This document shows positions 57,700 through 61,371 of a stretch of 64,000 nt of DNA, in pieces. Both the position numbers and the translations under genes were made by a program. The notes below the pieces were generated by a model, which worked only from the letters and a program-made list of their open reading frames with translations, did not search any database and was not told where the DNA came from. Each line of letters begins with the position of its first letter. The stretch's first letter is position 1. The stretch comes from Gemmatimonadota bacterium (GTDB lineage: Bacteria > Gemmatimonadota > Gemmatimonadetes > Gemmatimonadales > GWC2-71-9), in assembly GCA_003222195.1 (NCBI GenBank), contig QHVB01000025.1, forward strand, positions 62,001 to 126,000. Reading direction: 5' to 3'.

Positions 57700-57996
57700 G
57701 TGGACTCGGACGGCATCGTCGGTTTGGCAGCGGTCATCCTGCTGTTTGGTGGAGGTACGCTGTTTCTCCTCTCCGTCTCACCGGTGGGTAAAGCGTTCGC
57801 CGCTCGCATCCTCGGGAAAAAGCAGGGCGCGGATGCCAATGATCAGACTGCCGAAGAGGTCAGGGATCTCCGACAAGATGTCGACGAGCTGCGGCATTTC
57901 GGGGAGCAGATGAACGAGCTCAGCGAGCGTGTGGATTTCCTCGAGCGGTTCATTGCCAAGCAGCGGGAAGCCGAGCGGCTTCCACCGGTGAGGTAG
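57700..57996 (+). CDS. PspB-like small membrane protein 1 of 6
   Basis: The 98-residue product has one N-terminal membrane segment (GIVGLAAVILLFGGGTLFLL), a juxtamembrane SPVGKAFAARIL and a C-terminal coiled coil ending NELSERVDFLERFIAKQREA. This order (membrane helix, basic patch, coiled coil) is that of PspB, although the sequence match is limited to the heptad pattern. It shares SPVGKA with member 5. The last ~20 residues are identical to those of member 2 at protein level and nearly so in DNA. Function is inferred from the PspA gene at the end of the array. Confidence 0.75.
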   Translation: MDSDGIVGLAAVILLFGGGTLFLLSVSPVGKAFAARILGKKQGADANDQTAEEVRDLRQDVDELRHFGEQMNELSERVDFLERFIAKQREAERLPPVR

Positions 57997-57999
57997 GGT

Positions 58000-58272
58000 A
58001 TGCCTCCTGAGGGAGTGGCTTTTCTCTTCACGTTGACCATCATCGGGGCGACCATACTGCTGTTCCCACTGGTGCGTGCCTTCGCCGAGCGCATCCGCGG
58101 CAAGAACGTCGATGCTGGCGTGCGGGAGGAGCTGCAGGTGCTGCGTGAAGATCTCTTGGCTGAGATCCAGCACGCGCGCCGCGAGATCGGCGATTTCGGC
58201 GAGCGCGTCGACTTTCTGGAGCGGTTCATTGCCAAGCAGCGGGAAGCCGAGCGGCTTCCGCCGGTGCGCTAG
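58000..58272 (+). CDS. PspB-like small membrane protein 2 of 6
   Basis: Ninety residues: membrane segment GVAFLFTLTIIGATILLFPL, then VRAFAERIRGK, a charged linker (DAGVREELQVLREDLLAEIQ) and coiled coil ERVDFLERFIAKQREAERLP. It starts 3 bases after member 1. It shares FP-x-VRA-x-AERIR with member 3 and its C-terminal tail with member 1, so it looks like a hybrid of the two, consistent with recombination inside the array. Confidence 0.75.
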   Translation: MPPEGVAFLFTLTIIGATILLFPLVRAFAERIRGKNVDAGVREELQVLREDLLAEIQHARREIGDFGERVDFLERFIAKQREAERLPPVR

Positions 58273-58274
58273 CA

Positions 58275-58523
58275 ATGGACAGGGAATCGGTCCTCGCCCT
58301 CATGGCCGTTGTCGCCGGCGCCGTCATCATTCTCTTTCCTTTTGTGCGGGCCTTGGCTGAGCGGATTCGCCCGCGAGCCCTGGACTCCACGGTCCGCGAC
58401 GAGTTGCAAGCGCTGCGTGAGGACCTGCTTGCAGAGCTGCAGCACACGCGGCAGGAGGTTTCGGAACTCAGCGAGCGCGTCGACTTCACCGAGCGGCTGC
58501 TGGCCAAGAAGTCCCACGGATGA
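58275..58523 (+). CDS. PspB-like small membrane protein 3 of 6
   Basis: Eighty-two residues: ESVLALMAVVAGAVIILFPF is the membrane helix, followed by VRALAERIRPR and the coiled coil STVRDELQALREDLLAELQH ending ERVDFTERLLAKKSHG. The sequence from VRDELQ to LLAELQH is nearly that of member 2. It starts 2 bases after the member 2 stop, and its own stop overlaps the member 4 ATG. Confidence 0.75.
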   Translation: MDRESVLALMAVVAGAVIILFPFVRALAERIRPRALDSTVRDELQALREDLLAELQHTRQEVSELSERVDFTERLLAKKSHG

Positions 58524-58759
58524 ACGGGCCTGAAACCATCGCCGCCTTCATGTTTTTCGGCGGCACTTTCTGGGTGCTGCGCCCTGTCGCTGCCGCCGTC
58601 GCAAAGCGGATCGCGGGCGAGCATCGCCGGCCGGGGATGGAGCCGGCCGACCGGGACGAGATCTTGAGCGAGCTCCAAGCGGTGCGGCAAGAGGTCGCGG
58701 AGCTCGCGGAGCGAATGGACTTCGCGGAACGGCTGCTCGCCAAACCACGGGATGGGTGA
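58520..58759 (+). CDS. PspB-like small membrane protein 4 of 6
   Basis: Seventy-nine residues and the shortest member: membrane helix TIAAFMFFGGTFWVLRPVAA, basic AKRIAGEHRR, then ILSELQAVRQEVAELAERMD and FAERLLAKPRDG. The ATGA overlap with member 3 and GTGA/TGATG junction with member 5 make this the most tightly coupled part of the array. Confidence 0.75.
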   Translation: MNGPETIAAFMFFGGTFWVLRPVAAAVAKRIAGEHRRPGMEPADRDEILSELQAVRQEVAELAERMDFAERLLAKPRDG

Positions 58760-59040
58760 TGGAAGACATCATTGCCGTCTTTATCCCAATCGTTGCCGTC
58801 GGGGGCTTCTTTGCCTGGATGATCTCGCTCTCGCCGGTCGGGAAGGCGCTCGCGGACCGAATGCGGCACGGCCCCCTGCCCCGAGAGGGCGCCGGAACTG
58901 CCGAAGACCATGCGGAGTTGGTCGAAACTGTAGAGCAGTTGCGCCGAGAGGTGGCGGAACTGGCGGAGCGAGTAGATTTTACCGAGCGGCTCCTCGGTCA
59001 GCAGAAGGCCGCGGAGCAGCTGCAGCGGCCGCGGGCGTGA
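58759..59040 (+). CDS. PspB-like small membrane protein 5 of 6
   Basis: From ATG 58759 (GTG 58756 also possible) 93 residues: membrane helix DIIAVFIPIVAVGGFFAWMI, then SLSPVGKALADRMRH as in member 1, an acidic linker (GAGTAEDHAELVETVEQLRR) and the coiled coil EVAELAERVDFTERLLGQQK. Its resemblance to member 1 in the membrane-proximal part suggests the array arose from at least two duplicated types. Confidence 0.75.
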   Translation: MEDIIAVFIPIVAVGGFFAWMISLSPVGKALADRMRHGPLPREGAGTAEDHAELVETVEQLRREVAELAERVDFTERLLGQQKAAEQLQRPRA

Positions 59041-59086
59041 CGTTGCCTGCTGAAACGGGCATTGCCGACTCGGCGTAGGAGAGCAA

Positions 59087-59461
59087 GTGCTTTTACAGGC
59101 GACACCGCCACCGCTGCCACCGACGATTCCGTTCGATCCGAATCAGCTCCTCCCGCTGGTTGGGATGCTCGGCGGCATGCTGATCGCTGGTGTGTTCTTG
59201 TGGCGGTTTTTTACGTCGGAGATGGCGGCCGCGATTGCCGAGCGTATTCGCGCGGGAATTCACCGCAAGAGGCGGTGGAAGGGATTTGGCGGCGAGTGGA
59301 CGGATATGCCGACCGATGCGGCGTTAGATGCGGAGCATGTCGCCGAGCTGGAGCATAAAGTCATAGAAATGCAGGGCCAAATCGCCGAGATGGCCGAGCG
59401 GCTGGATTTTGCGGAGCGGCTGCTCGCGCAGAAGCGTGAGCGCTCATTGCCAGGAGCATAG
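59087..59461 (+). CDS. PspB-like small membrane protein 6 of 6 (long form)
   Basis: At 124 residues this is the longest member. A Pro-rich N-terminus (LLQATPPPLPPTIPFDPNQL) precedes the membrane helix LVGMLGGMLIAGVFLWRFF, then AAAIAERIRAGIHRKRRWKG, and the coiled coil ELEHKVIEMQGQIAEMAERL with DFAERLLAQKRERS. AGGAGAG (59077-59083) supports GTG 59087. It ends 6 bases before the pspA ATG, so it is the member most likely to be co-translated with PspA. Confidence 0.72.
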   Translation: MLLQATPPPLPPTIPFDPNQLLPLVGMLGGMLIAGVFLWRFFTSEMAAAIAERIRAGIHRKRRWKGFGGEWTDMPTDAALDAEHVAELEHKVIEMQGQIAEMAERLDFAERLLAQKRERSLPGA

Positions 59462-59467
59462 GGAGCC

Positions 59468-60232
59468 ATGGGGATCATTGATCGTCTGTCTACGCTGATC
59501 CGGTCGAACATCAACGATCTGATCTCGCGCGCCGAGAATCCGCAGAAGGTTCTCGAGCAGCTCATCGTCGACATGCGCAATCAGCTGGCGAAGGCCAAGC
59601 AACAGGTGGCCGCCGCCATTGCCGATGAGAAGCGGCTCTCCGCGCAGGCCGAGCAGGAAAAGAAGCTTTCCGAGGACTGGGAGAAGCGTGCGGTTCTCGC
59701 CGTGCAGGAAGGGCGCGACGATCTCGCCAAGCAGGCGCTGCTGCGCTACAACGAGCACGTCCAGGGCGCCGTGCAGCTCCAGGAGACGTGGGTCAAGCAC
59801 CGCGAGGAAACCGAGAAGCTCAAGGCGTCGCTGCGCCAGCTCAACGACAAGATCGAAGAGGCGAAGCGGAAGAAGAACATCCTGATCGCGCGGCAGAAGC
59901 GGGCCGAGGCCCACAAGCGCATTCAGGAGACGATGGGCGCGATCTCCGACAAGAGCGCCTTCGAAACGTTCGAGCGGATGGCGGAACAGATCGAGCACGA
60001 GGAGCGCAAGCTGATCGCCGCGGCCGAGGTGAACGAAGATCTCTCCGGCGATTCGCTCATCAAGCAGTTCCAGGGCATCGAGGTGAAGGCGACCGCGGAC
60101 GAGCAGTTGCTGGCGCTCAAGCGCAAGATGGGCCTGCTCCCGGGCGGCACGCAGGAACAGACACGGGCACTGGGCAAGGGTGCCAAAGACGCAGAATTGC
60201 TCGAGGATGACGACGCGGAGCAGAAGAGCTGA
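59468..60232 (+). CDS. pspA: PspA/IM30 family protein
   Basis: PspA/IM30 proteins assemble into ESCRT-III-like scaffolds on stressed membranes. The 254-residue product begins with the amphipathic helix MGIIDRLSTLIRSNINDLIS, then the long helical hairpin (PQKVLEQLIVDMRNQLAKAK ... EEAKRKKNILIARQKRAEAH) and further helices with SAFETFERMAEQIEHEERKL. A short C-terminal acidic tail (ELLEDDDAEQKS) extends the core. AGGGAG lies just before the ATG. It closes the array of six PspB-like genes and is followed by the permease gene. Confidence 0.93.
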   Translation: MGIIDRLSTLIRSNINDLISRAENPQKVLEQLIVDMRNQLAKAKQQVAAAIADEKRLSAQAEQEKKLSEDWEKRAVLAVQEGRDDLAKQALLRYNEHVQGAVQLQETWVKHREETEKLKASLRQLNDKIEEAKRKKNILIARQKRAEAHKRIQETMGAISDKSAFETFERMAEQIEHEERKLIAAAEVNEDLSGDSLIKQFQGIEVKATADEQLLALKRKMGLLPGGTQEQTRALGKGAKDAELLEDDDAEQKS

Positions 60233-60261: not shown

Positions 60262-61371
60262 TTGTCGAGCGCCACGTTTGTGGCGCTCTTTGTTGCGGCC
60301 CTCGTCGTCCTGTTCATCCTCAGGGTCATCGATGTCCTGCTGCTGGTGTTTCTTTCCATCCTGGTGGCAGTGTACCTCTCGGCCATCACCGATTGGCTCG
60401 AGTACCGATTCGGCATGCGTCGGTGGCTGGGGCTGACGCTCACCGTCATCGCCACGCTGGCGGTGATCGCGAGTGTTGCCGCGCTGCTCGCCCCGCCGGT
60501 TGTCGAGCAGACGCGGGCGCTGATTAGCGGGTTACCGCAGACACTCACGAACATTCAGAACGTGCTCGCGCGGTGGGCCAGCCAGTACCCGGTCCTCGAC
60601 CAGACCGAGCTGGCGAATCCGTCGTCGGGCTTCGTCTCGGGGCTCGTCAGCGATGCAGTGGGTTTCCTGAGCGGCTCGGTGTTCGGGTACGTCCGAGGCG
60701 GCGGCCTGGTGTTTATCGAGGGCGCGAGCGTCGTGGTGATGGCGCTGTATCTCGCGCGGCAGCCGGCATTGTACCGCGACGGCCTGATTTCGTTGTTCGC
60801 CCCGCAGCATCGGCCCATCGCGGTCCAGGTGTTCGACGACGCCGCGGCGACGCTGCGCGCCTGGGTGGTGGGCCAACTCATCGCGATGGCCGTGCTGGCC
60901 GCGTTGACCGCCATTGGGCTGTGGATCCTCGGTGTGCCCTACTGGCTGGCTTTTGGGATCTTCACCGGCCTCGTGGCGATCGTGCCGTTCTTCGGTACGC
61001 TGGTCTCCACGATCCTGCCCGCGCTCTTCATGGTCGCCTCGGGCGATTGGCTCAAAGTGCTGCTTGTGCTCCTCCTCGGCGTACTCGTGCACGTCTTCGA
61101 GGCGAACGTCGTCGTGCCGCGGATCATGCAGCGCAAGGTCGAGCTGCCGCCCGTCCTCACGATTGCCAGCGTGCTCGTGATGGGCAGCCTGCTCGGCGCG
61201 ATCGGGTTGATTGTGGCGGTTCCGGTGCTGTGTGTGACGATGGTGTTGATCCGCCATATCCTGCACGGCGAGATCTACGGCGAACACGGTCGCTTCAAGC
61301 CGGCGGTGCTGCGGCCGACAGAACCGTGGAGCGGCGTGGAACGCCGCCAGGCGGTGGTCTCCAAGAAATGA
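60262..61371 (+). CDS. AI-2E family transporter (PerM/TqsA-like permease)
   Basis: The 369-residue protein has about eight membrane helices, for example FVALFVAALVVLFILRVIDV, SILVAVYLSAITDWLEYRFG, LIAMAVLAALTAIGLWILGV and LPPVLTIASVLVMGSLLGAI, with family motifs VPYWLAFGIFTGLVAIVPFF and HVFEANVVVPRIMQRKVEL. Members export signalling molecules or ions; the substrate here is unknown. TTG 60262 is the best available start, 29 bases after pspA. Its stop overlaps the DUF1611 ATG. Confidence 0.88.
   Translation: MSSATFVALFVAALVVLFILRVIDVLLLVFLSILVAVYLSAITDWLEYRFGMRRWLGLTLTVIATLAVIASVAALLAPPVVEQTRALISGLPQTLTNIQNVLARWASQYPVLDQTELANPSSGFVSGLVSDAVGFLSGSVFGYVRGGGLVFIEGASVVVMALYLARQPALYRDGLISLFAPQHRPIAVQVFDDAAATLRAWVVGQLIAMAVLAALTAIGLWILGVPYWLAFGIFTGLVAIVPFFGTLVSTILPALFMVASGDWLKVLLVLLLGVLVHVFEANVVVPRIMQRKVELPPVLTIASVLVMGSLLGAIGLIVAVPVLCVTMVLIRHILHGEIYGEHGRFKPAVLRPTEPWSGVERRQAVVSKK

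Follow-up and report, generated by a model that had tools for sequence, protein, structure and literature searches.

How PspA is recruited to the damaged membrane in bacteria without PspB and PspC is largely an open question. It is raised by a locus in a 64,000-nucleotide stretch of Gemmatimonadota DNA (here called the window), where six small genes for membrane proteins lie on the + strand between uvrA upstream and pspA, at positions 57700-59461. What could six such proteins do at this place, and is their position beside pspA meaningful? We give about an even chance to the reading that they are distant relatives of PspB which span the inner membrane once, are probably transcribed together with pspA and most likely serve as partners of PspA on the membrane side.

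Six small membrane protein genes in front of pspA

The genes of the array are separated by 3, 2, −4, −4 and 46 bases, and 6 bases lie between gene 6 and pspA (59461 to 59468), exactly as a preliminary description of this DNA had it. These short spacings are compatible with a single transcript covering the array genes and pspA. No promoter-like site was found at the array-pspA locus, and terminator-like sites occurred at chance level only. The pspA gene of the window is the single PspA/IM30 gene found in its genome; in a relative (G004) another contig carries a second, diverged PspA-family match (C386:2627-3280, 42.7 bits).

Table 1. Genes of the array and the two genes that follow it
Feature	Position	Strand	Length (aa)	Remarks
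Array gene 1	57700..57996	+	98	GTG start; ORF open from TTG 57676
Array gene 2	58000..58272	+	90	ATG start
Array gene 3	58275..58523	+	82	ATG start; weak nearly full-length PspB match (TIGR02976 E=0.0069)
Array gene 4	58520..58759	+	79	ATG start; ATGA overlap with gene 3
Array gene 5	58756..59040	+	94	GTG start; ATG 58759 as alternative
Array gene 6	59087..59461	+	124	GTG start; proline-rich N-terminal extension; last before pspA
pspA	59468..60232	+	254	PF04012, 147.1 bits, above the curated cut-off of 33.9
AI-2E family transporter	60262..61371	+		Usual gene downstream of pspA

Each of the six proteins consists of one N-out transmembrane (TM) helix followed by a cytoplasmic helix that ends in E-R-x-D-F-x-E-R-[LF]-[LI]. 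In the alignment of the six, the invariant columns comprise a glycine in the TM helix and the two motifs that had been pointed out in the preliminary description, the juxtamembrane A-x-A-x-R and the C-terminal E-R-x-D-F-x-E-R. Mean pairwise identity reaches 57% in the C-terminal 20 columns compared with 33% in the TM and juxtamembrane part. Among 93 paralogues, F75 and R78 are invariant, while E71, R72, D74, E77 and L80 are kept in at least 90%. An AlphaFold2 model of the gene 5 product, computed with the 93 aligned sequences, has a mean pLDDT of 90 and shows a TM helix (residues 2-25), a break at a conserved proline, a second helix (27-38), a linker and a final helix of 42 residues (49-90). 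Hydropathy gives exactly one TM segment in 83 of the 93 members, and in 83 of 93 the C-terminal side of this segment is the more positive one, which by the positive-inside rule is predicted to be cytoplasmic. The ORFs, the alignment and the gene 5 model thus confirm the original observation of six consecutive small membrane and coiled-coil genes. Searches of Pfam, NCBIfam and PHROGs with the six proteins returned no convincing family, sequence matches in the PDB were at chance level only, and Foldseek against the PDB gave nothing useful, as expected for helices.

Relation to PspB

An analogy with PspB had been proposed as a structural inference, and it now becomes stronger and sequence-based. 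All six proteins of the window stay below the PspB cut-offs (best scores of 17.2 versus 51.7 bits for TIGR02976 and 11.5 versus 25.6 bits for PF06667). Nevertheless, TIGR02976 was the most frequently matched NCBIfam model, being hit at E<1 by 40 of the 93 members (best 4.6e-5) compared with 15 of 93 for the runner-up family, and by none of 60 hydropathy-preserving shuffled controls. The likeness to PspB therefore goes beyond TM and coiled-coil composition, the 40 matches coming from related members and not being independent of each other. A bridge is provided by a solitary protein of a relative (G026, L133:1474-1752), which contains both ERIDFTERLL and FWLHLHYRRR. It reaches 40 bits against the array profile, passes the Pfam PspB model PF06667 (27.4 versus 25.6 bits) and matches TIGR02976 with an E-value of 2.6e-7; within the phylum PspB exceeds the Pfam cut-off in a single one of 395 genomes, and this protein is the match in question. 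By contrast, hhalign of the array profile against the single E. coli PspB sequence gave a probability of 21%, a weak alignment that was out of register.

As to the features that define PspB, a single TM helix followed by a C-terminal cytoplasmic helix is present by hydropathy and in the AlphaFold2 model. Of the genes with which PspB is encoded, pspA is there but PspC is not: none was found in the window's genome, and just 7 of 61 genomes have it. Judging from the sequences, we take the array family as a remote homologue of PspB that has expanded at pspA, keeping in mind that the matches of related members are not independent. It would be improbable, in our opinion, that the six are a PspB set working without PspC and PspF, as regulators of PspA or of some transcription factor and thus in signalling instead of anchoring. 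The sequence similarity, including that of the bridge protein, and a predicted topology identical to that of PspB would suit such a role, but the scarcity of PspC, the lack of a regulator gene adjoining the array and its location upstream of pspA, where E. coli has pspB downstream, speak against it.

Linkage to pspA and relatives elsewhere

Of 61 near genomes, 46 contain relatives detected by a profile built from the six proteins. We located pspA separately and then read the loci, the counts referring to those in which uvrA and pspA are both visible. In the window's own family (f1), 24 of the 25 loci have 2-8 TM genes separating uvrA from pspA, the exception (G031) having uvrA and pspA without an array, and in the sister family f3 all 4 loci contain 1-5 such genes. 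None of 12 loci of family f2 has array genes in this interval; rechecking via hydrophobic ORFs likewise revealed none, the interval being occupied by other genes. No such TM gene was present in the pspA loci read in f4 and f5. In f6, f7 and f9 one diverged relative (23-43 bits) is followed by a small gene and then pspA; where tested, in f7 and f9 loci, the small gene encodes CesT_Tir_1 (PF22550). Since two f9 loci (L252 and L254) show the relative near pspA with uvrA outside the stretch read, the linkage is to pspA and not to uvrA. The AI-2E transporter gene directly after pspA is a feature of most of the Gemmatimonadota pspA loci that were read.

The carriers of the array are two families of uncultured soil Gemmatimonadota with up to eight diverged genes directly before pspA. 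Scanning a collection of named genomes with a narrow seed pattern yielded 50 loci, of which one was titled only "Bacterium HR33" and the others all had Gemmatimonadetes, Gemmatimonadota or Gemmatimonadales in their titles. Of the 395 genomes of the phylum, 346 had at least one match to a profile of the 93 members, many of these matches being weak. When PspA proteins of families with and without arrays were aligned, inspection by eye found no insertion or tail distinguishing the former.

Tens of other genomes have such arrays too, and within-genus orthologues are under purifying selection, with mean pN/pS values of 0.17-0.33 (0.28 for gene 1 and 0.17 for gene 4), which together argue that the array is not a product of chance. 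When 63 members from 14 genomes were placed in a tree, in which the short alignment leaves many forks open, they clustered by their position in the array and across genera. The gene 6 clade unites 12 rows across genera with a support of 99, the gene 1 clade consists of five orthologues from the genus, all in first position (99), genes 2 and 3 form a joint clade (99), and the clades of gene 4 and gene 5 are supported at 95 and 97. These position-specific clades bear out the suggestion that the paralogues are diverged and, together with purifying selection, point to an old and specialised array. The 3′ ends of gene 1 (57937-57996) and gene 2 (58213-58272) are ~92% identical over 60 bases while the remainder differs, a pattern that suggests recent gene conversion. 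If the genes had simply been amplified in tandem between two housekeeping genes, neutrally and with no function shared with PspA, this sign of ongoing duplication or conversion and a copy number ranging from 2 to 8 could in principle be accounted for. We strongly disfavour this explanation in view of the purifying selection, the position-specific orthologues across genera and the recurrence beside pspA in families that have no uvrA as neighbour.

Many relatives are nevertheless located away from pspA. Ten f1 genomes compared had 5 to 21 matches each, with about half of the relatives off the pspA locus: the window's genome has 12, six in the array and six elsewhere, G029 has about 15 of its 21 outside the pspA locus, and G031 has 13 with none at pspA. 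In most of the ten genomes the top-scoring relatives are those at pspA. Solitary dispersed copies retain the C-terminal motif, and a neighbour scan for a common pathway found no enriched gene family around them. The preliminary description had proposed a profile search for linkage to pspA and expected its idea to fail if relatives occurred mostly elsewhere; linkage proved to be genuine and deep, but in the window's genome half of the relatives are dispersed and in G031 all of them. Further groupings were seen off pspA: in f9 a second cluster of three tandem relatives (L264:3175-4221, L265:3468-4521, L267:3144-4158) lies far from pspA and upstream of a large ORF of 856-1081 aa, and f2 has relatives in twos and threes (L271:1756-4876, L287:2935-4427, L289) with a variant motif, S-E-[GA]-Q-R-[FY]-[ST]-x-[RK]-L-L.

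The dispersed copies give some weight to another explanation, namely that the C-terminal motif joins the paralogues to each other and not to PspA, so that they would be general hetero-oligomeric scaffolds and pspA one operon among those needing them. Retention of the motif in solitary copies, the large share of relatives away from pspA, the unenriched neighbourhoods and the self-association of E. coli PspB (PMC3068692) are all in line with it. Yet the members at pspA score highest in most of the ten genomes, are multi-copy and conserved in position, and single diverged relatives adjoin pspA in other families, so that we regard such scaffolds as unlikely, if a serious possibility.

A possible docking role and comparison with known systems

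For the preferred reading, in which the six proteins are partners of PspA, the likeliest mechanism would be docking of PspA via the invariant C-terminal motif. The common E-R-x-D-F-x-E-R-L-L motif would bind one shared cytoplasmic partner, for which PspA, as the conserved, single-copy neighbour, is the best candidate. The varied TM and juxtamembrane segments could provide a separate membrane site or stress input for each paralogue, and the long helices may pair paralogues into mixed bundles. We call this mechanism only likely because about half of the relatives are off pspA and have no common neighbours, PspC is absent, and in E. coli two-hybrid experiments PspB interacts with itself and with PspC, but not with PspA alone (PMC3068692), which means that the nearest relative does not anchor PspA directly. 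A wider proposal, that a large Gemmatimonadota family of PspB-like membrane adaptors with one docking motif and differing membrane parts calls one PspA to many membrane sites or stresses, the pspA array being its core set, is rather doubtful and offered tentatively. If the array proteins do dock PspA, as many as eight natural paralogues sharing one partner would be available for testing what the membrane part senses.

The pspA-linked array is not described in the main text of two broad Psp surveys (PMC9239133, PMC11237479), where "Gemmatimon" does not occur, and among the papers searched we found none on PspA or phage shock in Gemmatimonadetes. The neighbourhoods in one survey were built from known protein domains (PMC9239133), and array genes, having no family model, would not show up in a domain-based analysis of this kind. 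The other mentions PspB duplicates within an operon but no arrays of this size, and considers PspB rare outside Proteobacteria (PMC11237479).

With E. coli PspB the array proteins have in common an N-terminal TM helix with a positive cytoplasmic side, a charged C-terminal helix containing E-R-[IV]-x-x-x-E-x-[IL]-L, and membership in a psp operon. They differ by the presence of up to eight diverged copies, by the D-F-x-E-R signature and by the absence of PspC, in addition to the opposite position relative to pspA. The CesT/Tir-PspA dyads described in PMC11237479 find a counterpart in f3, f7/f9 and several f1 genera, where the TM genes are followed by CesT_Tir_1 (PF22550) and then by pspA. In contrast, CesT_Tir_1 was not found in the ten genomes of the window's genus, and in the window no further gene separates the sixth TM gene from pspA. 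A final parallel, drawn from the published descriptions, is LiaI of B. subtilis, a small membrane protein encoded beside a PspA homologue, which recruits LiaH to the membrane (PMC9239133). LiaI is of the multi-TM LiaI-LiaF-TM type (PMC11237479), whereas the array proteins combine one TM helix with a long cytoplasmic helix.
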